Positions 446-29,916 of a DNA stretch of 36,676 bases are shown one piece after another. Made by a program: the position numbers and the translations under genes. The notes beneath the pieces are model-generated. The model saw only the letters and a program-made list of their open reading frames with translations. It had not been told where the DNA came from and made no database searches. The stretch is from the NCBI GenBank assembly GCA_027491335.1, contig JAIXWJ010000022.1, forward strand, positions 1 through 36,676, written 5' to 3'. This DNA comes from Actinomycetes bacterium. Lineage in GTDB: Bacteria > Actinomycetota > Acidimicrobiia > Acidimicrobiales > Ilumatobacteraceae. How positions within the stretch are numbered: the first letter of the stretch is position 1; each line of letters begins with the position of its first letter.

Positions 446-2107
446 TCACACCTCCATGACGACGGGGACGATCATCGGACGGCGCTTGGTGCGTTCCGAC
501 ACGAACTTTCCCGCCGCGCGGCGCACGTCCTTCTCCAAACCCTCGGGATCACGAACCCCTTCGGCCAAGGCCTTCTCGACGGCCGCGGCCACCGCGTCGC
601 ACGCCTCGTCCAGCAGGTCCTCGGCTTCGGGCGCGTACACCCAACCGCGCGTGATGATCTCGGGACCCGTGAGCACCTTGCCCGTCGACGTGTCGACGGT
701 GACGATGACCACCACCACGCCCTCTTCGGCCAGCACGCGTCGATCGCGCAGAACACCTTGCCCCACGTCGCCCACGATGCCGTCGACGTACAACATGCCG
801 GCCGGAACACGACCGGAGGCGACCAATCCGTCGTCGGACAACTCGAGCACGTCTCCGTCCTCGCACAACAGGATGTGATCGCGACGCACACCCATCAACT
901 CGCCGAGCTTGGCGTGCGCCACGAGATGGCGGTACTCGCCGTGCACCGGAACGAACCACTCGGGCTTCACGATGGACAGATACGTCTTCAATTCGTCGGC
1001 TTGGGCGTGTCCGGTGGCGTGCACGTCGGCGATTCCCGAGTGCACCACCTCGGCGCCAGCGCGTAACAAACCATCGATCACGCGAGTCACGTTGAACTCG
1101 TTGCCCGGAATGGCGTGACTGGACAGGATGACCGTGTCGTGCTCGCCCACCTTCAGCAACTTGCTGTCTCCGCGCGCCATCAACGACAACGCCGACATGG
1201 GTTCGCCCTGACTACCGGTGGAAATGACGCACACCTTGTGGGGCGGATAGTCCGCCGCTTGCTCGATGTCGATGAGCGTGTCGTCGGGAACCTTCAGCAC
1301 CCCGAGGTCGCGGGCCATACGCACGTTCTTCTGCATGGAACGTCCGACCGTGGCCACCTTGCGACCGGTGCCGACGGCGGCGTCGATGATCTGCTGCACG
1401 CGATGAATGTGACTCGCGAACGACGCGGTGATGATGCGTCGATCGCGGTGCTCATGGAACAACGCCCGCAGGACCGCACCGATGCTGGTTTCGCTCGGGG
1501 CGTGACCGTGTTCCTCGGCGTTGGTCGAGTCGCAGAGCAACAAGCGCACGCCCTCGTTGGTGGCAATGGCGCCGATGCGCGCCAGGTCGGTGCGACGTCC
1601 GTCCACGGGCGTGAGATCCAGCTTGAAGTCGCCCGAGTGCAAGATGACTCCCTGCGGCGTGTGCACGGCCACGGCGAAGGCGTGCGGAACCGAGTGCGTC
1701 ACGGGGATGAACTCCACGTCGAATGGCCCGATCATTCGACGCTCGCCGTCGCGCACCACCACCAGATCGGTTCGACCGAGAAGACCGGCTTCCTCGATGC
1801 GACTGCGCGCCAGACCCAACGTGACGGCGGAGCCGAACACGGGGAACGACAACTCGCGCAACAGGAACTGCAACGCACCGACGTGATCCTCGTGGCCGTG
1901 CGTGGCCACGCAACCCACCACGCGGTCGGCGTTCTCGCGCAACCAGGTGAAGTCCGGCAACACCAGATCGATGCCGTGCATGTCGACGTCGGGGAACATC
2001 AAGCCACAGTCGATGAGGAGCAGCTTGTCGTCCTGCTCGATCACCATGCAGTTGCGACCGATCTCGCCCAGTCCCCCGAGGAAGACCACCCGCACCGGAT
2101 TCGGCAT
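446..2107 (-). CDS. rnj: ribonuclease J (metallo-beta-lactamase/beta-CASP RNase)
   Basis: The product is 553 residues, the usual RNase J length. It starts with a beta-lactamase strand (VRVVFLGGLGEIGRN) and carries the zinc motif T-H-G-H-E-D-H at residues 69-75. Further metal-site signatures follow (VTHSVPHA, HSGDFKLD). Then come the beta-CASP insert and the C-terminal HATGHA and PVHGEYRH motifs. RNase J processes and degrades RNA with endo- and 5'-3' exonuclease activity in the cytoplasm. The frame is open up to 2203, but the start at ATG 2107 is preferred: it overlaps the dapA stop as TGATG and matches the family N-terminus. The dapA-rnj pairing is also seen in mycobacteria. Confidence 0.95.
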   Translation of the reverse strand: MPNPVRVVFLGGLGEIGRNCMVIEQDDKLLLIDCGLMFPDVDMHGIDLVLPDFTWLRENADRVVGCVATHGHEDHVGALQFLLRELSFPVFGSAVTLGLARSRIEEAGLLGRTDLVVVRDGERRMIGPFDVEFIPVTHSVPHAFAVAVHTPQGVILHSGDFKLDLTPVDGRRTDLARIGAIATNEGVRLLLCDSTNAEEHGHAPSETSIGAVLRALFHEHRDRRIITASFASHIHRVQQIIDAAVGTGRKVATVGRSMQKNVRMARDLGVLKVPDDTLIDIEQAADYPPHKVCVISTGSQGEPMSALSLMARGDSKLLKVGEHDTVILSSHAIPGNEFNVTRVIDGLLRAGAEVVHSGIADVHATGHAQADELKTYLSIVKPEWFVPVHGEYRHLVAHAKLGELMGVRRDHILLCEDGDVLELSDDGLVASGRVPAGMLYVDGIVGDVGQGVLRDRRVLAEEGVVVVIVTVDTSTGKVLTGPEIITRGWVYAPEAEDLLDEACDAVAAAVEKALAEGVRDPEGLEKDVRRAAGKFVSERTKRRPMIVPVVMEV

Positions 2108-3006
2108 CAGTTGCCCTTCGATCGTGCCGCCTGGAGATTCGCCCACACCTTCTTGGCGCGTTCGGCCACGAAATCGGCCGGCGGCCCCATGGGCAAGCGA
2201 CACTGGCCCACCGGCACCCCGAGCATGTTCATCATCACCTTGCTCGGGATGGGGTTCGGGGAATCGTCTCCGGTCTCGTACGAGAAACTCTCGAGCAGTC
2301 GCGCGTTCACCTCGCGAGCGCCCTTCGCGTCACCGGCGTTCCACTTGGCGAACATCTCCTGATGGTCGCTGGCCGACCAGTGCGTCGCCACTCCGATGAC
2401 GCCCACCGCTCCGACCGCCAGCAACGGCAACGTGAGCCCATCGTCGCCGCTGTACACCTCGAATCCGGCGGGAGCCTGATTGATGACGTTCGCCGTTTCG
2501 GCCGGATTGCCCGCCGCGTCTTTCAGGGCCACCACGTTGGACACTTCGTTGGCCAACTTCAGCAACGTGGCGGTGTTGATCTTGCGACCCGAACGCACCG
2601 GGATGTCGTAGACAACGATCGGCAGTCCGGTGGAGTCCGCCACCGCACGAACGTGCGCCTCGATCCCGGACTGCGGGGGACGGTTGTAATACGGACACAC
2701 CACCAGGATTCCCGCGGCACCGAGCTTGGTGGCCTCTTTGGTCATGTGGATGGAGTGCAGGGTGTCGTTGGTGCCGGTTCCCGCGATCACGGGAATGGAC
2801 ACGCTCTCGATCACCGCGGCGAAGAGGCTCAGCCGCTCGTCGTCGGTGAGCACGGGCGCTTCGCCCGTGGTGCCGGCGATCACCAATCCGTCGTTGCCGT
2901 TGGCTTCGAGCCATTTGGCGAGATTGCGCGCGCCATCCAAATCGAGCGAACCATCGTCCGTGAATGGCGTCACCATCGCGGTGATCACTTGTCCGAAACG
3001 GGCCAT
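2107..3006 (-). CDS. dapA: 4-hydroxy-tetrahydrodipicolinate synthase
   Basis: The 299-residue TIM-barrel protein condenses pyruvate with aspartate semialdehyde, the first committed step of diaminopimelate/lysine synthesis. Visible signatures are G-T-T-G-E (45-49), Y107 in PYYNRPP, catalytic Y133 followed by R138 in YDIPVRSG, and Schiff-base K162 in VALKDAAGN. Its length is typical. The start codon overlaps the stop of the upstream gene (TGATG at 3008-3004) and its own stop overlaps the rnj start in the same way, so the three genes are translationally coupled. Diaminopimelate feeds peptidoglycan, which fits with ddl lying divergently upstream. Confidence 0.96.
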   Translation of the reverse strand: MARFGQVITAMVTPFTDDGSLDLDGARNLAKWLEANGNDGLVIAGTTGEAPVLTDDERLSLFAAVIESVSIPVIAGTGTNDTLHSIHMTKEATKLGAAGILVVCPYYNRPPQSGIEAHVRAVADSTGLPIVVYDIPVRSGRKINTATLLKLANEVSNVVALKDAAGNPAETANVINQAPAGFEVYSGDDGLTLPLLAVGAVGVIGVATHWSASDHQEMFAKWNAGDAKGAREVNARLLESFSYETGDDSPNPIPSKVMMNMLGVPVGQCRLPMGPPADFVAERAKKVWANLQAARSKGN

Positions 3007-3635
3007 CAGAAAGATCCTTCCTTTGCGCGATCGATGCCTTGCGACAGGATCAGGTCTTCATGCAGTTCCATCCACACGTCGTGGAACGACCCGCACATCA
3101 CTCCGGTGAACATGTTCGTCTGTCCCGCCACGACGGCCGCGCACGTCGACGACAATCGCGGGACGTACGGGGCGAGTCGACCCAGGATGCCACTCATCGA
3201 CGTGACGATGGGCGCCGTGTCACCATGAAGGTCGACGAGTCGGGCGACGACTTTCGCGTCGTATGCCGCGTCGGAGTGATCATTCGGGGCACCGTCGCGC
3301 AACTGCCAATCGCCGCACAAGTCCTTGAAAGCGGTGTTCAACTCGAGAAAGCCGTGATAGTGGACGCGCAACGCGTCGAGATCCACCGACGCGATGTCGG
3401 ATGCCAACACCTTGGGGTGTTCGGCCTTGCCCGCCGGGGTCAACTGCCACAGCGAGCGAGCCTCGCGGTACATGGCCCACTCGGCCGCGGCAAGATCGGC
3501 GAGGTGGATTTCGACCTCGGCGTGGTCGAGAGCGGTCATCTCGGCCAAGGTCTCGCTCTTGGCGAAGCCCTTGATACGCAAGGCATGGTGGGTCAAGAAA
3601 CGGGCATCGTGGGTCACGTTGCGGGCGGAGGACAT
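3006..3635 (-). CDS. uncharacterised winged-helix-like protein
   Basis: This 209-residue protein is the first gene of the coupled run leading into dapA. About residues 20-70 (AKSETLAEMTALDHAEVEIHLADL, then REARSLWQLTPAGKAEH) read like a helix-turn-helix followed by a wing, as in MarR-type proteins. The rest is a helical domain with several His, Cys and Trp residues (for example HYHGF, MFTGVMCGSFHDVWMELHEDL) and no motif I can name. ATG 3635 is chosen as start; a GTG at 3665 is in frame but would crowd the divergent ddl promoter. A possible -10, TACGCT, lies at 3650-3645, 9 nt before the ATG. In mycobacteria thyX holds this position, but this protein does not look like ThyX. A regulatory role is only inferred. 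Confidence 0.7.
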   Translation of the reverse strand: MSSARNVTHDARFLTHHALRIKGFAKSETLAEMTALDHAEVEIHLADLAAAEWAMYREARSLWQLTPAGKAEHPKVLASDIASVDLDALRVHYHGFLELNTAFKDLCGDWQLRDGAPNDHSDAAYDAKVVARLVDLHGDTAPIVTSMSGILGRLAPYVPRLSSTCAAVVAGQTNMFTGVMCGSFHDVWMELHEDLILSQGIDRAKEGSF

Positions 3636-3679
3636 ACGACGTCGAGCGTAGTGCTCACGCCCCACCCCCGACCGACCTG

Positions 3680-3685
3680 TATCTT
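3680..3685 (+). promoter_or_regulatory. -10 box of ddl, leaderless start
   Basis: TATCTT is preceded by TG (an extended -10) and ends 6 nt before the GTG of ddl. No Shine-Dalgarno sequence is visible, so transcription probably begins at or next to the start codon. No convincing -35 box was seen. Confidence 0.5.
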
Positions 3686-3691
3686 CGGGAC

Positions 3692-4780
3692 GTGGACGAT
3701 TCGTCAGCCGAGACCGCGCGCACGACGTTGGTCGTCGTCTTCGGCGGACAGTCCGCAGAGCACGACGTCAGTTGCGTCACGGCCGCCCACGTTCTGCGGG
3801 CCGTCGATCGACGGAAGTACTCGATCGTCGCCATCGGCATCGATCGTGACGGCCAATGGCACCTCGCCGAGGGAGCCATGGCCGCCCTCGACCGCGGACC
3901 GAACGAACTTCCGACGCGACTCGAAGCCGCCGGTCGCGAAGTGTCGTCCGCTCCGGTGCTCAGCGCCGCGGCATCGGCCGGACCGGTCGTCGTGATGCCC
4001 TTGCTCCACGGCCCCTTGGGCGAGGACGGAACGATCCAAGGGTTACTCGAATTGATGGGCCTCCCTTACGTCGGAACCGGGGTCCTCGGTTCGGCGTTGG
4101 GTATGGACAAAGGCATGGCCAAGAACGCTCTCGCGGCGTTCGGAATACCGCAACCGAACTTCGTGGCGCTGCGCGAGCACGAGGTGACGGTGTCGCGACT
4201 CGATGAAGTCGTCGATGCACTCGGACTGCCCATGTTCGTGAAGCCCGCCAACATGGGTTCGTCCGTCGGCGTGGCCAAAGTGTCCACTCGCGACGAGTTG
4301 ATGCCCGCCGTTCGAGCGGCGCTCGCCTACGACGAATGGATCGTGTGCGAAGAGGCCATCGTCGGTCGCGAGATCGAGGTGGCGGTGCTCGGAAACATCG
4401 AAACGGTGGCCAGCGTGGCCGGCGAGATCGTGCCCGGCAACGACTTCTACGACTACGAGGACAAGTACGTCACCGACGGTGCGAGCCTCATCATTCCGGC
4501 CGATTTGACCACCGAACAGAGCGACGAGGTGCGACGCCTCGCGTTGCGGGTGTTCGCCGCCCTGAGATGCGAGGGCTTGGCTCGTGTCGACTTCTTCTTC
4601 GAACCCGAGGGTCGTGGCTTTCTATGCAACGAGGTGAACACCATGCCCGGATTCACGCCCATCTCCATGTATCCGAAGTTGTGGCAGGCATCGGGCGTGT
4701 CGTACCCCGAACTGATCGACCGACTGGTCGACCTCGCCATCGAACGTCACACCCGTCGGCGACGCAACACCGTTCGCTGA
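3692..4780 (+). CDS. ddl: D-alanine--D-alanine ligase
   Basis: The 362-residue ATP-grasp enzyme joins two D-alanines for the peptidoglycan pentapeptide. Visible signatures are F-G-G-Q-S-A-E-H-D-V-S near the N-terminus (17-27), HGPLGEDGTIQG, GMDK, the ATP-grasp KPANMGSSVGV, the omega-loop YDYEDKY, and the C-terminal NEVNTMPGFTPISMYP metal/ATP site. The YDYEDKY loop is that of D-Ala-D-Ala enzymes; I see no VanA-type loop, so vancomycin-resistance-type D-Ala-D-Lac activity is not suggested. Translation starts at GTG 3692, apparently leaderless. It is divergent from the dapA operon (57 bp between starts) and convergent with the TetR gene. Confidence 0.95.
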   Translation: MDDSSAETARTTLVVVFGGQSAEHDVSCVTAAHVLRAVDRRKYSIVAIGIDRDGQWHLAEGAMAALDRGPNELPTRLEAAGREVSSAPVLSAAASAGPVVVMPLLHGPLGEDGTIQGLLELMGLPYVGTGVLGSALGMDKGMAKNALAAFGIPQPNFVALREHEVTVSRLDEVVDALGLPMFVKPANMGSSVGVAKVSTRDELMPAVRAALAYDEWIVCEEAIVGREIEVAVLGNIETVASVAGEIVPGNDFYDYEDKYVTDGASLIIPADLTTEQSDEVRRLALRVFAALRCEGLARVDFFFEPEGRGFLCNEVNTMPGFTPISMYPKLWQASGVSYPELIDRLVDLAIERHTRRRRNTVR

Positions 4781-4785
4781 TCCAC

Positions 4786-4815
4786 GAGAAATCGATCGAC
4801 GAGAGATCGATCAAC
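4786..4815. repeat. two imperfect 15-bp tandem repeats
   Basis: GAGAAATCGATCGAC and GAGAGATCGATCAAC are adjacent, followed by a degenerate third start (GAGGATCGAGAG). They sit between the convergent ddl and TetR genes and run into the last codons of the TetR gene. No terminator-like hairpin with a T run was seen here. Confidence 0.55.
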
Positions 4816-5404
4816 GAGGATCGAGAGCGGCGCGCAGGAAGCTCACCAGTTCGTCGCGCAAGCGCCGAAGCCCACCGATGTCGGCCGACCACCCCACCAC
4901 GCGCAACGCCTCGGGCTCGGTGGCGATGCCGGTGACGGTGGCGTAGGCAAGGGCCACGACCAGTCCCGGATCGGCGCGACGCAGCCGACCCGCGTCCATC
5001 TCGTCGCTCATCCAACGCATCGCTCGTTCGGCGAGGGGACGAAGAGTGTCGGTCAATTGCTCCGAGGACTCCGACGGGAGTCGACTGATCTCGCGCACCA
5101 AGCCCAACAACGAGGGTCGACGGACCGCGGGACGGAACACCGCCTTGATGACCGCCTCCATGCGATCGAGTGGGTCGTCGGGCGCCGAGCGAATGGCCGC
5201 TTCGACCACCAGAGTCAGCTCGATGGCGGTCTCCGACAGCACCTCGTGCACCAGCTCGTCCTTCGACGAGAACCAATAGAGGACGGTCTGCTTGGCCACC
5301 CCAACCTCGGCCGCGATGTGGTCCAGGCTGACCGCGTCGAATCCGCGGTGTCCGAACATGTTCCCGGCCACATCCAGGATGTTTTGGCGGGTCTGACGAG
5401 CCAT
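4811..5404 (-). CDS. TetR/AcrR-family transcriptional repressor
   Basis: The 197-residue protein has the typical TetR N-terminus: an opening helix (RQNILDVAGNMFGHRGFDAVSLDHIAAEVGV) and then the recognition helix AKQTVLYWFSSKDELV, about residues 5-52. The rest is an all-helical ligand-binding and dimerisation domain with no recognisable ligand signature. It is divergent from the lipid-type operon starting at 5475. The 70-bp gap holds a perfect 20-bp palindrome, so it very likely represses that operon and itself. The ligand may be an acyl-CoA or a related lipid, by analogy with other TetR proteins beside acyl-CoA genes; that is inference. Confidence 0.92.
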   Translation of the reverse strand: MARQTRQNILDVAGNMFGHRGFDAVSLDHIAAEVGVAKQTVLYWFSSKDELVHEVLSETAIELTLVVEAAIRSAPDDPLDRMEAVIKAVFRPAVRRPSLLGLVREISRLPSESSEQLTDTLRPLAERAMRWMSDEMDAGRLRRADPGLVVALAYATVTGIATEPEALRVVGWSADIGGLRRLRDELVSFLRAALDPR

Positions 5405-5434
5405 GGAGCACTTGCTATCACAGTTCTTCGGGTT

Positions 5435-5454
5435 TCTCTACCAATTGGTAGAGA
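5435..5454. promoter_or_regulatory. 20-bp palindromic operator, probable TetR site
   Basis: TCTCTACCAATTGGTAGAGA is a perfect inverted repeat with no spacer. It lies between the TetR start (5404) and the operon start (5475). Its size and symmetry suit a TetR dimer or pair of dimers. It ends 20 nt before the operon start codon, so binding would block RNA polymerase. A TACAAA box at 5462-5467 could be the -10. Confidence 0.75.
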
Positions 5455-5474
5455 GGTGTGCTACAAATGGCTCC

Positions 5475-7862
5475 GTGATCTCCGAACGTCTTGCCGGACG
5501 GCGCATCGCCGTCACCGGGGCCACCGGCTTCGTCGGTACCGCTCTGGTCGAGCGACTGTTGCGTTCCGTCCCCGATTGCACGGTGGTGTTGCTGGTTCGC
5601 AACGGCCGTCGCACGTCGGCCGTCGATCGAGTGCGCAAGGAGATCCTGAAGAACAACGCCTTCGATCGTTTGCGCGCCGAACTCGGAGCCGACTTCGACG
5701 CCACGATGGCACGACGTCTGTCGGTGGTGGCCGGCGACGTCGGCACCGATGGACTCGGATTGAACGACGCGGATCGAACCACGTTCGCCACGTGCGATGT
5801 CATCATCCACTCGGCCGCGAGCGTCTCGTTCGATTCGCCTCTCGACAGTGCCGTCGAGGTGAACCTGCTCGGCCCGACCCGCATCGCGAATCTGCTGAAC
5901 GACCACGGACCGCGTGACGACGGAACGTTCCCCCATCTGGTGGCGGTCAGCACGTGTTACGTGGCCGGCAACCGTCGCGGTACGGCTCCCGAAGAACTGG
6001 TGAGTGACGGCCCCTTCGACATCGGCCTGAACTGGCGAACCGAGGTGGCCGCGGCACGGCGATTGCGCGGCGACTCCGAAGCGGCCAGTCGTCTCCCCGA
6101 GAATCTCGCGCGCTTCCGATCCGAGGCCCGCTCGGAACTCGGTGCCGCCGGAGCGCCGGCGTTGGCCGAGAAGACCGAGCAGATTCGCGAACGTTGGGTG
6201 AAGGACCGACTGGTCGAGGCCGGTCGCACTCGCGCCGCCAGCGTCGGTTGGCCCGATGCCTACGCGTTCACCAAGGCCCTCGGCGAGCAGGCCCTCACCG
6301 AGTCCAAGGGAGCCGTGCCGGTGAGCATCGTGCGACCCTCGATCATCGAGTCCGCTCTCGCCGAGCCCACGCCGGGCTGGATCCGCGGATTCCGCATGGC
6401 CGAGCCCGTGATCATCTCCTACGCCCGCGGGTTGCTCGACCAGTTCCCGGGCGTCCCCGAGGGCACGGTCGACGTCATCCCCGTCGACATCGTCGTGGCG
6501 GCCATCATCGCCGTGGCGGCGCTCGGACCGTCCGAGGCTCCCGCCATCACGCAGGTCGCTTCCGGATCGACGAATCCGCTGAAATACCGCACGCTCGTCG
6601 ACAACGTTCGCGACTGGTTCACCGAGCATCCCATTTACGACTCCCAGGGTCAGCCGATCGTGGTCCCCGATTGGAAGTTTCCCGGCCGCGGAACCGTCGA
6701 AAAGCAACTCACCCGCGCCAAGACCCTCATCACTCGGGGCGAGAAGGTTCTGCAAGCTCTGCCCTTGCGAGGAACCCAAGCCGAATGGTCGGCGAAGTTG
6801 GAGGATCGTCGTAGCGACGTCGAGCGCGCGCTGGAATACGTCGAGTTGTACGGCCTCTACACCGAGTGCGAAGCCATCTACTCGGTCGACAATCTGCTTT
6901 CCATCAACGATCGCCTCGATGACGAGGATCGTCGGAACTTCTGCGTGGATCCGCGCGTGGTCGATTGGCCCACGTACATCTCCACCATCCACCTGCCCTC
7001 GATCGTGTTGCACAGTCGTGTCAAAACGACACCGGGCAAGACCGTCGTCGATCGCGCCGATCGATTGCGCAAACAGGTGCTCGACCCACGCCGTCACGTG
7101 GCCGCGTTCGACTTGGAGAACACGCTGATCTCCAGCAACGTCGTCGAGAGTTATTCATGGTTGGCCACGCGTCGCCTCAACTCCCCCGAACGACTTCGCT
7201 ACGTGTTGCGCACGCTTCGCGAGGGACCGTCACTGATGTCGATGGATCGCAAGGATCGCTCCGACTTCCTGCGCTACTTCTACCGACGCTACGAGGACGC
7301 TCCGGTCGAGCAGATCGATGCCGACGCCCGCGAGTTGTTGGCCCAACTGATCATGACCAAGAGCTTTCCCGCCGGTCTTCGCCGCGTGCGCGAACACCGC
7401 GCACTCGGACATCGCACCATCCTCATCACCGGGGCCATGAGTTTCGCCGTCGAGGGCCTGCGTCCCCTGTTCGACGAGATCGTCGCCGCCGAGATGACCG
7501 TGCGTCCCGATGGCACCTATTCGGGTGAACTGTCGCGCGTTCCACCGACCGGCGAGACGCGCGCTCAAGTGCTGGCCGATTACTGCGCCGCCGAGGGTCT
7601 GCGCTTGGAGGAATCCATCGCCTACGCGGACTCCAGCAGCGACCTTCCCATGCTCGAGGCCGTCGGCTTCCCGGTGGCGGTCAATCCCGAGACGCGTCTG
7701 GCCGCCATCGCCCGCAAGCGGGGCTGGCTCGTGGAGAACTGGGAGAAGGCCGAGGGAGGACCCCGACCGCTTCTGCCCATCGGACCGCGCGTGTCGGACG
7801 GCGAACAGAAGCGATTCACCACGCGCACCGGACGAATCGGCACGAGGCGGAACGATCGATGA
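5475..7862 (+). CDS. fatty acyl-CoA reductase-like SDR fused to HAD-IB domain
   Basis: The 795-residue protein has two parts. Residues 1-500 are an extended SDR of the male-sterility/acyl-CoA-reductase type: T-G-A-T-G-F-V-G at 14-21 binds NAD(P)H, S-T-C-Y-V is near 159-163, and the catalytic Y263-x3-K267 follows. Residues 540-745 are a HAD-IB (SerB-like) domain. There motif I reads D-L-E-N-T (546-550), so the usual second Asp is Glu548; motif II Thr652 and motif IV D719-S-S-S-D723 are intact. The first half may reduce a fatty acyl-CoA or acyl carrier to aldehyde or alcohol, and the second may act on a phosphate ester. Both substrates are unknown. The GTG at 5475 is chosen because the frame upstream (open to 5403) encodes the operator region. 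The stop overlaps the next start (ATGA). Confidence 0.85.
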   Translation: MISERLAGRRIAVTGATGFVGTALVERLLRSVPDCTVVLLVRNGRRTSAVDRVRKEILKNNAFDRLRAELGADFDATMARRLSVVAGDVGTDGLGLNDADRTTFATCDVIIHSAASVSFDSPLDSAVEVNLLGPTRIANLLNDHGPRDDGTFPHLVAVSTCYVAGNRRGTAPEELVSDGPFDIGLNWRTEVAAARRLRGDSEAASRLPENLARFRSEARSELGAAGAPALAEKTEQIRERWVKDRLVEAGRTRAASVGWPDAYAFTKALGEQALTESKGAVPVSIVRPSIIESALAEPTPGWIRGFRMAEPVIISYARGLLDQFPGVPEGTVDVIPVDIVVAAIIAVAALGPSEAPAITQVASGSTNPLKYRTLVDNVRDWFTEHPIYDSQGQPIVVPDWKFPGRGTVEKQLTRAKTLITRGEKVLQALPLRGTQAEWSAKLEDRRSDVERALEYVELYGLYTECEAIYSVDNLLSINDRLDDEDRRNFCVDPRVVDWPTYISTIHLPSIVLHSRVKTTPGKTVVDRADRLRKQVLDPRRHVAAFDLENTLISSNVVESYSWLATRRLNSPERLRYVLRTLREGPSLMSMDRKDRSDFLRYFYRRYEDAPVEQIDADARELLAQLIMTKSFPAGLRRVREHRALGHRTILITGAMSFAVEGLRPLFDEIVAAEMTVRPDGTYSGELSRVPPTGETRAQVLADYCAAEGLRLEESIAYADSSSDLPMLEAVGFPVAVNPETRLAAIARKRGWLVENWEKAEGGPRPLLPIGPRVSDGEQKRFTTRTGRIGTRRNDR

Positions 7863-9076
7863 AGGCTCTCAGGATCTCGCGCAAGACCGGCAAGTTCGCC
7901 GTGGCCCGACTGGTGAGTCCGGTGAGCGCGTTCGGCGCGGCGAAGTTCGGTCCATTGTCGCTCGTCGACGACGACGCCCCCGCGTTGCCCGGTGTCGACG
8001 GATGGCATCGCATCACACCGCGCCTCACCGGCATCTGTGGAAGCGATTTGTCGCTCGTCGAGGGTCATGCGTCCACGTACTTCGACGATTGGGTGTCGTT
8101 CCCGTTCGTGCCCGGACACGAGGTTGTCGCCGACTGCGACGACGGTCGACGCGTGGTGCTCGAACCGGTGCTCGGACACGCGGCCCGCGGACTACCGCTT
8201 CCGTTCGACGGTGCGGCTCCCGGCGATGGCGACGACTACGCCCACTTGGTCGGTGGATGTCTGGCGCCCGGAATCCAAACCGGGTTCTGCCAGTCGACCG
8301 GTGGCGGATGGGCCACCGAGTTGATCGCTCACGAGAGCCAACTGCACGCCATCCCCGATTCGATGTCGGACGAGCAAGCGGTGCTCGTGGAGCCCGCCGC
8401 CGGCGGCATCCACGCCGCATTGGCCACTTGGCCCGCCGTCTCGGCCGCTCTCGCCCGCGGCGAGACGCCCGTGGTGGCGGTGCTCGGTGCGGGAACCATG
8501 GGTTTGTGCGCGGTTGCCGGCTTGCGTCGCTACGTGCCGCAGGTCCGCATCCTCGTCGGCGCGCGCTATCCGCATCAACAGGCCTTGGCGCGTTCGCTCG
8601 GCGCCGACGTGGTCGTTCCCGCCGACGAACTGTCGCGTGCGGTTCGACGCGAGGTCGGGTGCCATGTGGTGGGCGATCACCTCACCGGTGGTTCGCACGT
8701 CACCATCGACGCGGTCGGCAACTCCGACAGCATCGCCGAGTGCCTGCGCTTCACCCGCCCCCGCGGACGCGTGATCCTTCTCGGCATGCCGGCCGACGTC
8801 TCCTTGGACCTCACGGGCCTGTGGCATCGCGAGACCGCCATCGTCGGCGCGTACACGTACGGCACCGAGAACCTGCCCGACGGAACAACCAAGCACACGT
8901 TCGATCTGGCCATCGAGACCGCGGCCGAGTGCCGTCTCGAGCGTCTGGTGTCGGCCGCCTATCGCCTCGAGGATTACCAAGATGCCATCGCCCATGCGGC
9001 CGCCGCCGGACGTCGGGGCGCCGTGAAGATCGTGTTCGACCTACGAAACGGTCGAAGCAAGAAGGAGAGCCACTGA
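7859..9076 (+). CDS. zinc-type medium-chain dehydrogenase/reductase
   Basis: This 405-residue MDR protein has a catalytic zinc site suggested by C60 (G-I-C-G-S-D), H87-E88 (P-G-H-E) and E179 (V-E-P). A Rossmann motif G-A-G-T-M-G lies at 210-215. The four-cysteine lobe that binds structural zinc in classical alcohol dehydrogenases is not seen after residue 100; the region instead has a Gly-rich insert with FCQSTGGGW. It probably oxidises or reduces an alcohol/aldehyde pair with NAD(P). It is the second gene of the operon, with a 4-nt overlap upstream and a TGATG overlap downstream. An acting partner for the reductase product is plausible but not shown. Confidence 0.88.
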   Translation: MKALRISRKTGKFAVARLVSPVSAFGAAKFGPLSLVDDDAPALPGVDGWHRITPRLTGICGSDLSLVEGHASTYFDDWVSFPFVPGHEVVADCDDGRRVVLEPVLGHAARGLPLPFDGAAPGDGDDYAHLVGGCLAPGIQTGFCQSTGGGWATELIAHESQLHAIPDSMSDEQAVLVEPAAGGIHAALATWPAVSAALARGETPVVAVLGAGTMGLCAVAGLRRYVPQVRILVGARYPHQQALARSLGADVVVPADELSRAVRREVGCHVVGDHLTGGSHVTIDAVGNSDSIAECLRFTRPRGRVILLGMPADVSLDLTGLWHRETAIVGAYTYGTENLPDGTTKHTFDLAIETAAECRLERLVSAAYRLEDYQDAIAHAAAAGRRGAVKIVFDLRNGRSKKESH

Positions 9077-10662
9077 TGCCTCGTCCCGGATTCGTCCTCG
9101 ACGTCGACCGTTCGACGCCACCGATCCTTTTCTGGCGTGGTGAGAACTTCTCCCTCGAGAAGCTGCCCGCCGGACGCAGTCGCGTGATCTACGCACCCGA
9201 GCCCCTGCCCGCCATCGACGACGTGGACGGTGCCATTCGCAACGCGTTGCTGAATCCCATCGACCAGGACCCGCTGCCCGCCCAGTTGTTCGCGGGAATG
9301 AAACTCACCATCGCCTTCGACGACGTCAGCCTTCCGTTGCCCAAGATGCAACGACCCGACATTCGCCAGCGCGTCATCGAGGCGGTGCTCGATCTGGCCG
9401 CCGAGGCCGGCGTCGACGACGTGCACATCATCTCGGCGCTCGCCCTTCACCGTCGCATGACCGAGGCCGAGCTGCGTCACGCGGTCGGCGACCGCGTGTA
9501 CGACGCCTTCGCGCCTCGCGGATTGCTGTATCAGCACGATGCCGAGGATCCCGAGAACCTGGCGTATCTGGGCGCCACTCCTCACGGCGAGGACGTCGAG
9601 ATCAACAAGCGAGCCGCCGAGAGCGACCTGTTGGTGTACGTGAACATCAACCTGGTGGCCATGGACGGCGGCTGGAAGAGCACCGCCACCGGTCTCGCGT
9701 CGTACAAGTCGTTGCGCCATCACCACAATCCCGACACCATGATCCACTCGCGTAGCTTCATGGACCAGCACCGCAGCGAGTTGCACAAGAGCAACTGGCG
9801 CATGGGCAAGGTGTTGCTCGACAGCGGCGTGAAGGTGTTCCAGATCGAGACCACCCTGAACACCGACACGTTCCCATCTCCCTTCGGATTCCTGGCCAAG
9901 CGCGAGTGGGAATGGAAGCCGTCGGATCGCATGACCTACATCGGCACCACGAAGGCCCTCAACCGCACGCCCAATCGCATCGCGCGCAACATCTTCCACT
10001 CCATCGAGGCGCCCCATCAGATGACCAGCGTCCAGGCCGGAGAGGTGGAAGCGGTCCATCGCATCACCACCGAGCACGTCTACAAGCAACAGCTCGTCGA
10101 GGTGAAGGGCCAGACCGACATCCTCACTCTCGGCATTCCCTACATCAGCCCCTACAACGTTCACTCCATCATGAACCCGATCCTGGTGATGTGCATGGGA
10201 CTCGGGTACTACTTCAACATGTACAAGGGCATGCCTCTCGTGCGCGAGGGCGGCGTCATCATCATGACCCACCCCACTCGACCCGAATTCCATCCGGTCC
10301 ACCATCCGTCGTACATCGACTTCTTCGAGCAGGTGCTGGCCGACACCACCGACCCGCACGTGATGTCGCAGAAGTGGGAGAAGCAATACGCCGAGGACGA
10401 GTGGTACCGCCACCTGTATCGCACCACGTACGCGTACCACGGAGTGCATCCCTTCTACATGTGGTACTGGGGTAGCCACGCTCTGAAGCACTGCGGACGA
10501 ATCATCGTGGTCGGGGGCGATCCCAAGACCGTTCGTCGTCTCGGCTTCGTGCCCGCATCGACGATGGACGACGCGCTCGAGATCGCCAGCGACGTCGTCG
10601 GTCGCACCCCCACCATCACCCATCTCCACGCGCCGCCGTTGATGGTGGCCGACGTTTCGTGA
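9076..10662 (+). CDS. divergent LarA-like (lactate racemase/DUF2088) protein
   Basis: The 528-residue protein follows the LarA plan, from an N-terminal F-D-D-V-S-L-P (LarA: D-x-T-R-P) to a C-terminal GRIIVVGGDP. LarA enzymes interconvert alpha-hydroxy acid isomers using a nickel-pincer nucleotide attached to a lysine. Here G-G-W-K201 matches the pincer lysine, H217 sits at K+16 as in LarA (K184/H200), and H125 lies in ALALHRRMT. The Arg of DxTR is Leu, and no His occurs where LarA has H174. It is long for the family and rich in Tyr, Trp and His near the C-terminus. No larB, larC or larE cofactor genes are present in the window. The product may therefore be a cofactor-dependent enzyme on a lipid hydroxy acid or something different. 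The start is fixed by TGATG coupling. Confidence 0.82.
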   Translation: MPRPGFVLDVDRSTPPILFWRGENFSLEKLPAGRSRVIYAPEPLPAIDDVDGAIRNALLNPIDQDPLPAQLFAGMKLTIAFDDVSLPLPKMQRPDIRQRVIEAVLDLAAEAGVDDVHIISALALHRRMTEAELRHAVGDRVYDAFAPRGLLYQHDAEDPENLAYLGATPHGEDVEINKRAAESDLLVYVNINLVAMDGGWKSTATGLASYKSLRHHHNPDTMIHSRSFMDQHRSELHKSNWRMGKVLLDSGVKVFQIETTLNTDTFPSPFGFLAKREWEWKPSDRMTYIGTTKALNRTPNRIARNIFHSIEAPHQMTSVQAGEVEAVHRITTEHVYKQQLVEVKGQTDILTLGIPYISPYNVHSIMNPILVMCMGLGYYFNMYKGMPLVREGGVIIMTHPTRPEFHPVHHPSYIDFFEQVLADTTDPHVMSQKWEKQYAEDEWYRHLYRTTYAYHGVHPFYMWYWGSHALKHCGRIIVVGGDPKTVRRLGFVPASTMDDALEIASDVVGRTPTITHLHAPPLMVADVS

Positions 10663-10666
10663 GTCG

Positions 10667-11695
10667 ATGATGGCCCGCCGCGACGACGCACCCTGGAAGC
10701 CCAGCAACCTGGCCAAAGCGGCCAAGTTCGGCGACCTCGTGGAGCGACTCACGCATCCCATCGCGCGTCGCGCGTACAAACGAGGCTTTCCCTATCTCCC
10801 ACCCACCGTTCCCATGGGCGTGGAGGTCCCCGAGGATGCACCCACGCTCGGCGCGGACTACGACACGGAGTGGGCGCGGAGCTCGGTCGCATCGATCGTG
10901 CGTCGCGGCCTGGTGGAGGGTCCGGTTCGTTTGGCGGTGAAAGGCATCGCCAGCCCAACGGTGTACGGAACCGATCGCCTGAGCGACTTGGCGCGACTCG
11001 ATGATGCTCCCCCGCTGATCTTCGCCCCCAACCATCACTCGCATTTGGACACGGCGTTGATGGCTGTCGCCGTGCCGGAACCCTGGCGTTCGAAGTTGGT
11101 GGTGGCCGCGGCGGCGGACTACTTCTTCGACAAGCGTTGGAAGGCCACCATGGCGGCGTTGGCGCTGAACGCCATTCCGATCGATCGCGAGGTGACCGGG
11201 CGCAAGTCGTCGGACATGATTCGTGAATTGATCGAGGACGGATGGAGCCTCGTCATCTACCCCGAGGGTGGACGATCCCCCGACGGATGGGGCCAGGACT
11301 TCAAGGGCGGAGCCGCGTATCTGTCGTCGCGCACGGGCGCCCCGGTGGTGCCGGTGTTCATCGACGGCACCGGTTCGATCTACGGCAAGGGAATGAAGCG
11401 TCCGAAGCGGGGCACCACCAAGGTGGTCTTCGGTCATCCGTTGCGTGCCGACGAGAGCGAGAACACTCGGCGCTTCTCGAGTCGCATCGAGCGAGCGGTG
11501 ACGACGTTGGGCGACGAGTCGCTCACCGATTACTGGAGTTCGCGCCAACGCGCCGCGCGCCAGGAGAGCCCCAAGTTGACCGGCCCGGAGTACACGGGTT
11601 GGCGACGCCAATGGGCTCTCTCCGAGCGCCGCTCCATGGGTGACGCTGGCGTGCGACGGCGACAGAAGCGCCGCTGGCCCAACCTCGGCGACTGA
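10667..11695 (+). CDS. PlsC-like 1-acylglycerol-3-phosphate acyltransferase family protein
   Basis: This 342-residue protein belongs to the lysophospholipid acyltransferase family. It carries H124-x4-D128 within NHHSHLDT (catalytic) and E-G-G-R-S at 200-204 (phosphate binding), followed by FKGGAAYLSSRTGAPVVPVFIDG. About 110 residues precede the catalytic domain and are not typical of a minimal PlsC. It probably transfers an acyl group from acyl-CoA or ACP to a lipid acceptor at the membrane. It closes the four-gene operon, 4 bp after the LarA-like stop. A second in-frame ATG at 10670 could also be used. A long palindrome follows 5 bp after the stop. Confidence 0.88.
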   Translation: MMARRDDAPWKPSNLAKAAKFGDLVERLTHPIARRAYKRGFPYLPPTVPMGVEVPEDAPTLGADYDTEWARSSVASIVRRGLVEGPVRLAVKGIASPTVYGTDRLSDLARLDDAPPLIFAPNHHSHLDTALMAVAVPEPWRSKLVVAAAADYFFDKRWKATMAALALNAIPIDREVTGRKSSDMIRELIEDGWSLVIYPEGGRSPDGWGQDFKGGAAYLSSRTGAPVVPVFIDGTGSIYGKGMKRPKRGTTKVVFGHPLRADESENTRRFSSRIERAVTTLGDESLTDYWSSRQRAARQESPKLTGPEYTGWRRQWALSERRSMGDAGVRRRQKRRWPNLGD

Positions 11696-11810: not shown

Positions 11811-12392
11811 TCAGGGCTTGGGATCCTTGGTGGGCGGCGGAACGTTGATCTCGTCACCGGGCAGGATCACCACGGAGGCGTCCACCCAGCCGTTGGCCGC
11901 CATCAAATCCGACGCCTCGACACCCAACTTGTCGGCGATACGCGAGATGCAGCAGTCGCCCTCGACCACCGTGTACTTGGTGTACTGCGTGTCATCGGGC
12001 GACGGCGAGGTGCTCTCGGTCGGCATCGGCAATCCGGGCAACGTGGTGGCCTGAACCGCCGTGGGTGGAATCAGGATGGATGCGCCGATCGCCAACGGGT
12101 GCAACACGCCCTCGGGCCAGTTGTTGTACGCGGCCAGTTCGTCGGGCTCGATACCGAACTTGGCGGCGATGGCGTACACCGAGTCGCCCTTGACGATCGT
12201 GTACTGCATCGGCGGCGGAAGCGTGTTCGCCGGATCGAGCGTGGTCACCACCGACGGCGGGGTCGTGGCGTAGTTCGTGCTGCTCAACGGACGCAACGTG
12301 GTGGCCGTGGCCCCCGGATCGCTTCCGCAGGCCGCCAACAACGACCAGGCGATCAGGCCGATGGCGATGGAGGTCACGCGCTTCGTCAACAC
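11811..12392 (-). CDS. lipoprotein with two LysM domains
   Basis: The 193-residue product starts with a signal peptide and lipobox L-A-A-C (Cys22), so it is exported and membrane anchored. A Thr/Pro-rich linker follows, then two LysM units beginning YTIVKGDSVYAIAAKFGI and YTVVEGDCCISRIADKLGV. LysM modules bind N-acetylglucosamine in peptidoglycan or chitin. The second unit has an unusual Cys-Cys pair. GTG 12392 is preferred because TAGATT (12405-12400) ends 7 nt before it as a leaderless -10. An in-frame ATG at 12428 would add 12 residues. A role in cell-wall attachment or remodelling is inferred; no catalytic domain is present. Confidence 0.85.
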   Translation of the reverse strand: MLTKRVTSIAIGLIAWSLLAACGSDPGATATTLRPLSSTNYATTPPSVVTTLDPANTLPPPMQYTIVKGDSVYAIAAKFGIEPDELAAYNNWPEGVLHPLAIGASILIPPTAVQATTLPGLPMPTESTSPSPDDTQYTKYTVVEGDCCISRIADKLGVEASDLMAANGWVDASVVILPGDEINVPPPTKDPKP

Positions 12393-12399
12393 GACCGTC

Positions 12400-12405
12400 A
12401 ATCTA
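12400..12405 (-). promoter_or_regulatory. -10 box of the LysM lipoprotein gene
   Basis: TAGATT on the minus strand ends 7 nt before GTG 12392, the spacing seen at other leaderless starts in this window. No clear -35 box was found. Confidence 0.35.
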
Positions 12406-12480
12406 GATCGCCGAACACCCGGGAACATGGCAGATCACGTCGCGAGCCGACTTGAAAAGTCACACGGGACGGCGAATGGA

Positions 12481-13932
12481 TCACACCAGAGGTCGAGCCG
12501 TGGGCGGAATCGGCGCCGGAAGCGTGGTCTCCCCCATCAAGCGCTCGTCGACGCCGGCCGCGCACGCGCGACCCTCGGCGATGGCCCACACGATGAGGCT
12601 CTGCCCGCGACCCATGTCGCCAGCCACGAACACTCCGGGCACGTTCGACATGTAGTTCTCGTCACGCTTCAGATTTCCGCGCTCGTCGAACTCGACGCCC
12701 AACTTGTCGAGCCAGCCGCCCTTCTCCGGACCGACGAAGCCCATGGCCAGGAAGACGAAGTCGGCCGGAATCTCGCGATCGGTCCCCTCCACCTTCACGA
12801 AACGACCGTCCTTCATCTCCACCTCGTGCAGACGAAGCGCCTTCACGCGACCGTTGCCGTCGTCGACGAAGCGTTCGGTGTTCACGCTGTACAAGCGCTC
12901 GCCGCCTTCCTCGTGCGCCGAGGTGACCTTGTAGACCATGGCGAACTGCGGCCACGGATTACCGCCACCACGCGCCTGCGGCGGTTGCGGCATGATCTCC
13001 AATTGGGTCACCGACGCGGCGCCCTGACGATGCGACGTGCCGAGGCAATCGGCGCCGGTGTCACCGCCACCGATGATCACGACGTGCTTGCCGTTCACGT
13101 TGATCGGCGAATCCGCGAGGTCACCTTCTTGAACCCGATTCGCGTAGGGCAGGTACTCCATCGCCTGATGGATGCCAGCCAACTCACGACCGGGGACCGG
13201 CAGATCACGCCACGCCGTCGCGCCACACGCCAGAACCACGGCGTCGTGGGAGGCCATCAGGACGTCGATGTCGACGTTCTGACCCACGATGGCGTTCGTC
13301 CGGAATTCGGTTCCCTCGGCCTCCATCTGGGCGATTCGTCGATCCAGATGACGCTTCTCCATCTTGAACTCGGGAATTCCGTAGCGGAGCAACCCGCCGA
13401 TGCGATCGGCGCGCTCGAGCACCACCACTTCATGGCCGGCGCGCGTCAGCTGCTGAGCGACGGCCAATCCCGCCGGCCCCGAACCGATCACCGCGACTCG
13501 ACGGCCGGTCTTCACCGACGGAACCTGTGGCACCACCCAACCCTCGGACCATGCGCGGTCGATGATTTCGACCTCGACCTGTTTGATGGCGACCGGGTTC
13601 GCGTTGATTCCCACCACGCAGGCCGACTCGCACGGTGCCGGACACAAGCGGCCCGTGAACTCGGGGAAATTGTTGGTGGCGTGCAAGCGATCGATCGCAT
13701 CGCGCCAGTGATCGCGATAGACGAGGTCGTTCCAGTCGGGAATGAGGTTTCCGAGCGGACAACCGTTGTTGCAGAACGGAATACCGCAGTCCATGCAACG
13801 TCCCGCCTGCTGCTTCAACGCCTCGGCGTCGAACGGCTCGTACACCTCTTTCCAGTCGCGCAAGCGCACGGGCACCGGTCGGTGCTTCGGCGTTTGCCGT
13901 TCCCACTTCAGGAATCCGGTCGTCTCACCCAC
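12481..13932 (-). CDS. gltD: glutamate synthase (NADPH) small subunit
   Basis: This 483-residue FAD/NADPH protein passes electrons to GltB for conversion of 2-oxoglutarate and glutamine into two glutamates. The N-terminal ferredoxin-like part has cysteine clusters C-M-D-C-G-I-P-F-C-x3-C and C-P-A-P-C-E-S-A-C for [4Fe-4S] centres. The FAD motif V-I-G-S-G-P-A-G and the NADPH motif I-I-G-G-G-D-T-G follow, with a C-terminal [18 protein letters not shown]. The length is typical. The GTG start at 13932 overlaps the end of gltB by 8 nt, so the subunits are translationally coupled. Confidence 0.95.
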
Positions 13933-28449: not shown

Positions 28450-29916
28450 TCAGTCCGTTCCGGGTCGACGAGACGTTTCGCTCGTCGGATCTCCGTTGTA
28501 TCCCGACGGGTATGAACGGCGCAGTTCGTCTTCCGTGGGCGTGCGCTTCGTGCGAGCCTCGGCGGGCAAGAGTTCGACGATGGCCTTCATGATCCGCTTC
28601 GTGTTGGCATCGGCCGTCTTGCCGCGCAATTGCAACGGCTCGCCGACGCGAACCCGCACGGTCGGCGGGTTGGTCACGTTCAGCAGATTGGGCAAACGCG
28701 ACGAACGGGGCCACACCAGTTCGGTGCCCCACAAGCCCACCGGAACCACCGGCACTTTGGCCTGCATCGCCAATGTCGCCGCACCCCATCGTCCCTTCAA
28801 CACCGGTTCGAAGAACGCCGGACCCCGCGGAATTGTTCCCTCGGGCATGATCGCCACCAGTTCGCCGGCGGCCAGTGCTTCGGCGGCGGCGCGCAACGGT
28901 TCGTCGCTTCCCGTGCCACGGTCCACGCGGATCCCTCCGAGCGCGGTGGCCAACTGACCCACCACGGGAGCGTCGAAGACTTCCTTCTTGCCGAGGAAGC
29001 GCACCGGTCGACCGGTGCGAGCCACGGTGACCGCGATCGCCATCACGTCGAAGTACGAACGATGATTGCCACAGATGATGGCCGGACCATCGGCCGGAAT
29101 CAGATCGGTGCCGTCGATGTCGAAATTGGCGAACGGAATGAACGTCGGTCGAGCCAACTGCAACAACAGTCGTTGCAATTCCATGTTCACCACGGGGATC
29201 TTGGCCACGCCCGCGGGAACGTCGAAGTGCAACACCGGCCACCGACGAGCAGCCGCCACCAACATCATTCGCGGGTCGGGGTTCACCGCGGTCGGGTGAC
29301 CCACCGCCGACAACAACGGCGTGTCGTACACGCTGTCGCTGTACGCGTACGACGATCTCAGATCGACGTCGTTCGCGTGCGCCCAATCGCGCACCGACTC
29401 CAACTTGCCGATGCTCCACACGAATCGACCTTCGATGGTTCCGTCGTACGTGCCGTCGCTTCTCACTCCGTAACGCGTGGCCACCACGTCGTCGAAGCCC
29501 AATGCGCGCGCCAACGGCTCCACCAGATCGATCGGTGTGGTGGTGGCCATCACCAACAATCTCCCCGCCTCGCGATGCGATTCGATCACCCGACGAGCGA
29601 AGGGAGGCACGAGCGCGAGCAATCGTGGTGCGACCGTTTCGGCCACGCGTCGAACGTCGTCCCGCGAGCGACCCTTGGCCAACGAGGCCGCCTGACGCGC
29701 CAAGGCCATGGACGGCAACGTCTCACCGATCCGATTGAAGAGTTCGTACAGAGCTTTCTCACCGGGAATCGATTGCGTCACCAATCCGGCGTCGCGCATG
29801 GCCTCGGAGAAGACCGACCCCGACGCTCCGACGAGCAACGTGCGGTCGAGATCGAAAAAGGCCGCGGACTTCACGCGCGGAACGGTAACGCCCAAGGAGC
29901 CGAGCACCGACGCCAT
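28450..29916 (-). CDS. HAD-IB phosphatase-PlsC acyltransferase fusion
   Basis: The 488-residue protein has an N-terminal HAD-IB domain with D22-L-D24-R-T (motif I), a motif II Thr in VMATTTP, and S-D-S-x2-D-T-P-L-L (motif IV). The C-terminal PlsC domain has N-H-R-S-Y-F-D (H-x4-D) and P-E-G-T-I-P-R-G. The same order occurs in mycobacterial PlsC (Rv2483c), annotated as a bifunctional phospholipid-synthesis protein. It probably acylates lysophosphatidate, and the HAD half may remove a phosphate. Unlike the SDR-HAD protein at 5475, motif I is canonical. ATG 29916 is used here; GTG 29874 (giving VKSAAFFDLDRT) is an equally likely start. It converges with the nitroreductase gene. Confidence 0.9.
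   Translation of the reverse strand: MASVLGSLGVTVPRVKSAAFFDLDRTLLVGASGSVFSEAMRDAGLVTQSIPGEKALYELFNRIGETLPSMALARQAASLAKGRSRDDVRRVAETVAPRLLALVPPFARRVIESHREAGRLLVMATTTPIDLVEPLARALGFDDVVATRYGVRSDGTYDGTIEGRFVWSIGKLESVRDWAHANDVDLRSSYAYSDSVYDTPLLSAVGHPTAVNPDPRMMLVAAARRWPVLHFDVPAGVAKIPVVNMELQRLLLQLARPTFIPFANFDIDGTDLIPADGPAIICGNHRSYFDVMAIAVTVARTGRPVRFLGKKEVFDAPVVGQLATALGGIRVDRGTGSDEPLRAAAEALAAGELVAIMPEGTIPRGPAFFEPVLKGRWGAATLAMQAKVPVVPVGLWGTELVWPRSSRLPNLLNVTNPPTVRVRVGEPLQLRGKTADANTKRIMKAIVELLPAEARTKRTPTEDELRRSYPSGYNGDPTSETSRRPGTD

Follow-up and report, generated by a model that had tools for sequence, protein, structure and literature searches.

A cassette of four tightly packed genes lies behind a divergent TetR-family regulator at positions 4811-11695 of the 36,676-nucleotide stretch analysed here (the window), which corresponds to positions 1 to 36,676 of contig JAIXWJ010000022.1 in a genome assembly (GCA_027491335.1; 76 contigs, 2,519,991 bases) of an actinobacterium of the family Ilumatobacteraceae (Acidimicrobiia, Acidimicrobiales). 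The genes encode a fatty acyl-CoA reductase-type (FAR) short-chain dehydrogenase/reductase (SDR) fused to an HAD-IB phosphatase (FAR-HAD), a zinc-dependent medium-chain dehydrogenase (MDR), a homologue of LarA (LarAH) and a PlsC-like acyltransferase. The evidence supports these four genes as one conserved unit, recurring in distantly related actinobacteria. The cassette suggests that an unusual membrane lipid is made in a way not yet described, and is probably a lipid-building cassette dependent on the nickel-pincer nucleotide (NPN). The following features were located:

4811..5404, minus strand: TetR-family regulator, divergent to the cassette (TetR_N, PF00440, 52 bits)
5435..5454, no strand: perfect 20-base palindrome TCTCTACCAATTGGTAGAGA, predicted to be the probable TetR operator
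5475..7862, plus strand: FAR-HAD, fatty acyl-CoA reductase-type SDR fused to HAD-IB phosphatase (PF07993, NAD_binding_4, 197 bits; PF12710, HAD, 91 bits)
7859..9076, plus strand: zinc-dependent MDR, polyol/ketose reductase-like (PF00107, ADH_zinc_N; PF08240, ADH_N)
9076..10662, plus strand: LarAH14/15/16-family protein, probable NPN enzyme (Lar_N; NF052592), sitting inside a longer open reading frame
10667..11695, plus strand: PlsC/AGPAT-like acyltransferase (PF01553, 68 bits)

An earlier note on this DNA had described four tightly packed plus-strand genes in this interval, behind a single TetR gene and a palindrome. All five genes were found at the positions and on the strands it gave, the regulator and the palindrome were both located, and its family calls (TetR, SDR-HAD, MDR, LarA-like and PlsC-like) were confirmed by Pfam. 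The plus-strand genes are joined by an ATGA overlap (7859-7862), a TGATG overlap (9074-9078) and a 4-base gap (10663-10666). The longest open reading frame of FAR-HAD starts at the ATG at 5403 and ends at 7862; GTG 5475 is probably the true start, since the palindrome at 5435-5454 falls inside the frame beginning at 5403.

The recurrence of the gene set was investigated in 140 loci, comprising 60 hand-picked stretches on contigs of sufficient length to show the neighbours and the best 80 of at least 584 confirmed matches. Six of these were dropped for identical LarAH DNA and 134 distinct loci were counted. Near loci are the 40 from the cassette's own order together with the best 80, mostly from Acidimicrobiia/Actinomycetota, with a few labelled Acidobacteria or Bifidobacterium that were taken as mislabelled metagenome-assembled genomes. 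Distant loci are L102-L121, among which L120 and L121 carry LarAH-like proteins under the family cut-off. Loci with less than 4.3 kb of upstream or less than about 1.3 kb of downstream sequence were omitted from the respective denominators. FAR-HAD was identified upstream of LarAH in 95/95 testable near loci and PlsC downstream in 104/104, with MDR beside the cassette in 81 of 95; of the distant loci, 19 were testable, and 15 of these have FAR-HAD and MDR and 11 have PlsC.

Of 396 genomes of the phylum, own genome included, 89 have FAR-HAD together with LarAH, 3 have LarAH without FAR-HAD, 6 have FAR-HAD without LarAH and 298 have neither (Fisher p 5e-77, indicative only because shared ancestry is ignored). 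LarAH-positive genomes in this sample were 86 over the cut-off and six with fragments; another 24, whose LarAH-like proteins are weaker, were kept out of the positives, and one of these, G138, has FAR-HAD. The two genes share a contig in 82 of the 89 genomes, in all 82 cases with FAR-HAD upstream of LarAH and both on one strand, and in 71 they are less than 2 kb apart. Among 100 relatives LarAH was found in 85. Ilumatobacter nonamiensis (L156) and Aquihabitans sp. G128 (L190), both culturable, are carriers with a species or strain name. Over 37 shared loci (window included), the pairwise distances of LarAH correlate with those of FAR-HAD (Spearman 0.82, 666 comparisons), as expected for joint inheritance. 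Based on the phylum co-occurrence and the locus counts, chance clustering of the four genes was rejected. The earlier note had set beforehand that its proposal would fall if the genes were not together elsewhere; the search was run and the set recurs in many genomes. Its statement that no characterised pathway has this set also held for the open-licence papers searched.

Five palindromes with arms of at least 7 bases were identified in the window, two of which, including that at 5435-5454, are perfect over 20 bases. The motif of the latter, picked after being seen, had 0 matches in 100 window shuffles. A divergent TetR homologue occupies the equivalent place in 76 of the 95 testable near loci. 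Because the exact sequence CTACCANNTGGTAG lies upstream of FAR-HAD in 55/95 near loci, compared with 0/2969 control segments, TetR control of the cassette through an operator of this type is likely; the relaxed form ACCANNTGGT was found in 74/95 and 28/2969, respectively. The second perfect 20-base palindrome, CGCACCGGTCGACCGGTGCG, is at window positions 29000-29019. An operator scan of viral contigs gave what looks like chance background and was not used.

LarAH is a full-length member of the named NCBIfam family NF052592 (LarAH14/15/16), scoring 898.4 bits against a whole-protein cut-off of 740, which corrects its description as divergent in the earlier note. The best fold match of its predicted model (pLDDT 94.6) was 9q3k (TM 0.77 by query); 9q3k and 9q3j, its best fold relatives at 20-24% identity, are both single-histidine LarA structures. 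Conservation was assessed in four alignments, A1 to A4, which consist of the window and 48/68, 36/52, 30/55 and 26/59 candidate rows, respectively. Residues D82, H125, N190, K201, H217, Y360, H455 and H458 of LarAH were conserved in 49/49 sequences (A1). Based on the roles given in PMC12611868 and PMC7583248, Asp82 would be the ribose-contact aspartate, His125 the first catalytic histidine, Lys201 the NPN-bearing lysine and His217 the nickel-ligand histidine, K201 and H217 being the two residues that mark NPN-dependent LarA enzymes. The second catalytic histidine of the two-histidine racemases (H174 of LarA) has no counterpart: the aligned column holds Asn in 48/49 and Thr in 1/49 sequences, and Asn192 of LarAH aligns with the Asn which replaces this histidine in the single-histidine structures. 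The LarAH row of L118 has a histidine one position after the column. Because the second catalytic histidine is missing, a plain inversion of a hydroxy acid by LarAH is doubtful. The lipid model of the earlier note is thus sustained in its conserved four-gene unit and its FAR-like reductase and weakened at the LarAH step. Immediately before the NPN lysine (LarAH positions 200-201, A1) the residue is His in 33/49 sequences and Trp in 15/49, including the window.

According to PMC7583248, a group-14 protein of Frankia was inactive in seven reactions tried after purification and addition of NPN; its membership of NF052592 is suggested by the family name. In PMC12611868, groups 14 and 15 were noted to have no second histidine, and for LarAHs without such catalytic residues another hydride-mediated reaction was deemed conceivable by the authors. 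In the 2024 paper PMC11770544 the designation LarAH15 refers to a D-gluconate 2-epimerase of Phytophthora, which clashes with the numbering in the NCBIfam name; the latter is taken, not with certainty, to follow the 2020 groups. This clash aside, no measured activity for the NF052592 family was found in the literature searched. Weaker LarAH-like proteins of approximately 505-540 bits, under the cut-off, belong to families f61, f67 and f74 (e.g., L120) in genomes without a FAR-HAD match, and possibly have a different function.

The best solved and fold relative of the FAR half (residues 2-513) was rice DPW 7eoz (E 1e-60), deposited as a fatty acyl-CoA reductase, so that the acyl-CoA reductase-type SDR of the earlier note proves to be FAR-like over its full length. 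The Rossmann motif, Ser, YxxxK motif and C-terminal domain of such reductases are all present, with G15, G18, G21, S159, Y263 and K267 invariant; a match to PF03015 ("Sterile") was below cut-off. The HAD half matches 3fvv by sequence and fold and has the nucleophile Asp and motif IV DxxxD of HAD-IB enzymes (D546, D719 and D723). S159, Y263-x3-K267, D546, D719 and D723 were found in 37/37 sequences. The second motif-I residue is unusual, being Glu in 30/37 and Asp in 7/37. In several Rubrobacteraceae genomes (e.g., G110, G125 and G183) the FAR-HAD match contains one in-frame stop, and FAR and HAD may be separate genes there. The MDR is most closely related among solved structures to 1e3j, a ketose reductase, and C60, H87, E88 and E178 were conserved in 31/31 sequences; four putative structural-zinc cysteines are kept in 28/31 aligned homologues and missing in the window, L087 and L088. 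The PlsC-like protein, with 5kym as a solved relative, has the HX4D and EGxR motifs, H123-x4-D128 and E200-G201-x-R203 being invariant in 27 sequences. Since catalytic residues are conserved in the alignments, FAR, HAD, MDR and PlsC all appear to be active.

The own genome encodes LarB, LarC and LarE, as needed for NPN synthesis; at E 1e-8 it has one Lar_N protein. The same threshold gave one Lar_N match in 80 of the 84 relatives with a PF09861 match, and more in G030, G065, G074 and G084; on this count, other LarA proteins were rejected as the NPN clients. In the 100 relatives LarAH occurred together with LarB in 74 genomes (LarAH only 11, LarB only 4, neither 11; Fisher p 4e-6) and with LarE in 73 (LarAH only 12, LarE only 5, neither 10; Fisher p 6e-5), ancestry being ignored in both tests. 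LarC was found in 81/92 LarAH-positive genomes of the phylum sample and in 162/304 others. A plasmid search yielded five distant LarA-type matches, all below 60% identity. NPN genes adjoin the cassette in 5/20 distant loci:

L102: larE, larB, larC
L105: larE, larC
L104: larE
L111: larE
L106: larB

The most likely reading, which is offered tentatively, is that of a TetR-controlled cassette for an alkyl-ether glycerolipid in which the NPN enzyme is a regular step. From the gene set, its recurrence, the palindrome, the residues and the link to the NPN genes, all of them observed, we infer the substrates, the order of steps, the protein roles and the ether bond. The FAR half would reduce a fatty acyl thioester to an aldehyde or alcohol. 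LarAH, with NPN on Lys201, nickel on His217 and His125 as its single general acid/base, would shuttle a hydride such that the chain is joined or rearranged on a glycerol or glycerone-phosphate backbone, this not being a simple racemisation. The ketose-reductase-like MDR, which is missing beside the cassette in some lineages, would reduce a ketone intermediate, for example alkyl-dihydroxyacetone phosphate (alkyl-DHAP) to alkyl-glycerol 3-phosphate (alkyl-G3P). PlsC would acylate the sn-2 hydroxyl, and the HAD half would dephosphorylate an intermediate or by-product. A mixed ether/ester glycerolipid is the product to be expected.

Rubrobacteraceae loci carry FAR, HAD, MDR and LarAH. Contig 2 of one of the carriers, G173 (L215), matches plasmid NZ_CP031116 at 100% and at the same coordinates, which ties this genome to Rubrobacter indicoceani. 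A paper on Rubrobacter lipids reportedly names a putative alkyl-glycerol-phosphate operon in its abstract. For Rubrobacterales, approximately 46% ether-linked phospholipids in the core lipids were reported (PMC10821996). No AGPS-like protein was identified among the six PF02913 proteins of two Rubrobacteraceae genomes. DUF2229, which we take to be the marker of Ger/PlsA, was absent from four Rubrobacteraceae genomes. It was detected in 0/12 cassette genomes, with 3/14 controls positive, including Thermotoga maritima, and the Ger/PlsA ether route was rejected on this basis. The tested ether-forming enzymes thus seem absent in Rubrobacteraceae, and the FAR-HAD/LarAH cassette is therefore a candidate. 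An AGPS-like gene was located in the own genome:

G000:C40:60440-61147 (L239:1459-3129), minus strand: AGPS-like gene, best PDB matches being alkyl-DHAP synthases (AGPS)

AGPS-like proteins were found in 3/7 cassette genomes tested, with similar proteins in G062 and G374 and none in G035, G091, G139 and G173. As these genes do not track the cassette, an AGPS-dependent ether route was rejected. Ether lipids in Acidimicrobiia are a prediction, and a guess.

A long shot is that LarAH itself is a redox-neutral ether synthase. Ether bonds would then be formed biologically in a new way, and NPN would, to our knowledge, be used in lipid synthesis for the first time. In such a reaction NPN would abstract the hydride at the C2 carbinol of glycerol-3-phosphate and pass it to an oxocarbenium formed from the FAR-made fatty aldehyde and the C1 hydroxyl, giving 1-O-alkyl-DHAP, which MDR would turn into alkyl-G3P for acylation by PlsC. 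If true, this would account both for the single general acid/base and for Rubrobacter ethers made without AGPS or Ger.

Several observations weigh against the alkyl-ether cassette. MDR is absent beside the cassette in 14/95 near loci, and in loci L114-L119, L214, L215 and L216 of Rubrobacteraceae LarAH has no PlsC match next to it. The AGPS-like gene of the own genome could make ethers without LarAH, and no lipid data (ether or diol) for Acidimicrobiia turned up in the literature searched. The FAR-HAD model was built from LarAH-adjacent copies, and remoter FAR-HADs would go uncounted. Pfam detected neither the ElbD ligase nor its acyl-carrier domains, known from the myxobacterial elb operon, in the four cassette proteins. 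With regard to the cofactor, LarC had no match at E 1e-20 in 11/92 LarAH-positive phylum genomes, several of them 91-98% complete, and 7/85 LarAH-bearing relatives showed no match to LarB or LarE; PF01969 (LarC), searched in five of those seven, was not found in G076, G078, G085 and G093 and was partial in G044. In PMC12611868, the nearest solved LarA structures are connected by their authors with carbohydrate metabolism.

This last point is shared by a different reading, in which the cassette handles a polyol, a sugar phosphate or another small metabolite, with FAR acting on a non-fatty thioester, MDR being a true ketose reductase and PlsC a passenger. The ketose/polyol dehydrogenases nearest to MDR and the lack of an adjoining PlsC in Rubrobacteraceae are in keeping with it, and a sugar-acid role would be nearer still if the NCBIfam name followed the numbering of PMC11770544, where LarAH15 is the D-gluconate 2-epimerase. 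It is nevertheless unlikely: the name is taken to refer to the groups of 2020, where 14 and 15 have no second histidine, FAR resembles fatty acyl reductases over its full length, and PlsC follows LarAH in all testable near loci and in 11/19 distant ones. A lipid of the 1,2-diol type or derived from a 2-hydroxyacyl chain, near the model of the earlier note, seems rather unlikely. LarAH would alter the C2 configuration of a 2-hydroxy fatty acid, FAR would produce a diol or hydroxy-alcohol, MDR would adjust the redox state and PlsC would acylate. FAR and PlsC do belong to one cassette with LarAH, and the LarA activities given in PMC7583248 and PMC11770544 are on 2-hydroxy acids; against this stand the Asn or Thr in the second-histidine column (L118 having its His at the next position), the inactive group-14 protein of Frankia, whose family membership is taken from the name, and the lack of a Pfam match to a 2-hydroxylase within the cassette.

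It is very unlikely that LarAH has given up NPN, in all or some lineages, and that its fold has been put to another use in a lipid pathway. Such a change would fit the genomes G076, G078, G085 and G093, which keep LarAH and show no LarB, LarC or LarE, as well as the LarAH-positive phylum genomes without LarC. However, Asp82, His125, Lys201 and His217 are present in every aligned sequence, and the NPN residues are intact in G078, G085 and G093 in spite of the undetected LarB, LarC and LarE; moreover, NPN genes adjoin the cassette in a quarter of the distant loci and LarAH tracks LarB and LarE in the relatives.

The genes flanking the cassette (window 2107-4780 and 11811-13932) encode DapA, a 219-aa protein, Ddl, a LysM protein and GltD. 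One or more of these lie close to it in many near loci, and none do in the 20 distant loci. Ddl, which adjoins many of the near loci, was considered a regional neighbour because no Ddl match was obtained in any of the distant loci L102-L121, and a cell-wall D-lactate role, based on the neighbouring Ddl, was rejected.

Through this cassette LarA groups 14-16, which have no second catalytic histidine and no substrate found in the literature searched, gain a nearly constant metabolic partner and therefore a short list of substrates. For Rubrobacter, the cassette also supplies candidates for the genes behind its ether lipids. Acidimicrobiia are common in lakes and seas, and the prediction that they make a reduced-chain membrane lipid would, if borne out, matter for lipid biomarkers and for the lipid divide that separates bacteria from archaea.

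Judged by analogy, the nearest known system found appears to be the elb ether-lipid operon of myxobacteria, which is needed for the ether lipids of these bacteria (PMC9131029) and likewise combines a FAR domain, an HAD phosphohydrolase and an acyltransferase. Unlike the elb operon, the cassette has its HAD fused to FAR, and it includes a LarA homologue, none being described for elb in the available text. An elb operon is defined by ElbD, with its ligase and acyl-carrier domains, and by ElbE; Pfam detected no such domain in the four proteins here, and the cassette would work like elb without being a member. LarASp and LarABw (9q3k and 9q3j) are the closest solved folds to LarAH, and Asn in place of the second histidine is common to all three; the gene neighbours of LarASp and LarABw are sugar-metabolism genes, as given in PMC12611868. 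Rice DPW 7eoz is matched by the FAR half over the full length in sequence and fold, and differs from the cassette enzyme in that the latter has an HAD-IB fusion and an operon with a LarA homologue. Within NF052592, LarAH is a full-length member in which the NPN-binding lysine and the histidine are kept. Neither the 2020 nor the 2025 LarA paper uses the words "fatty" or "lipid" in its main text, Table S1 of PMC7583248 (neighbours) lying outside this count, and no description of the cassette as a unit, of its operator or of a partner for LarAH was found in the open-licence papers searched. Each family is known singly; what appears to be new, within the papers searched, is their union in one cassette, its operator and the partner of LarAH.

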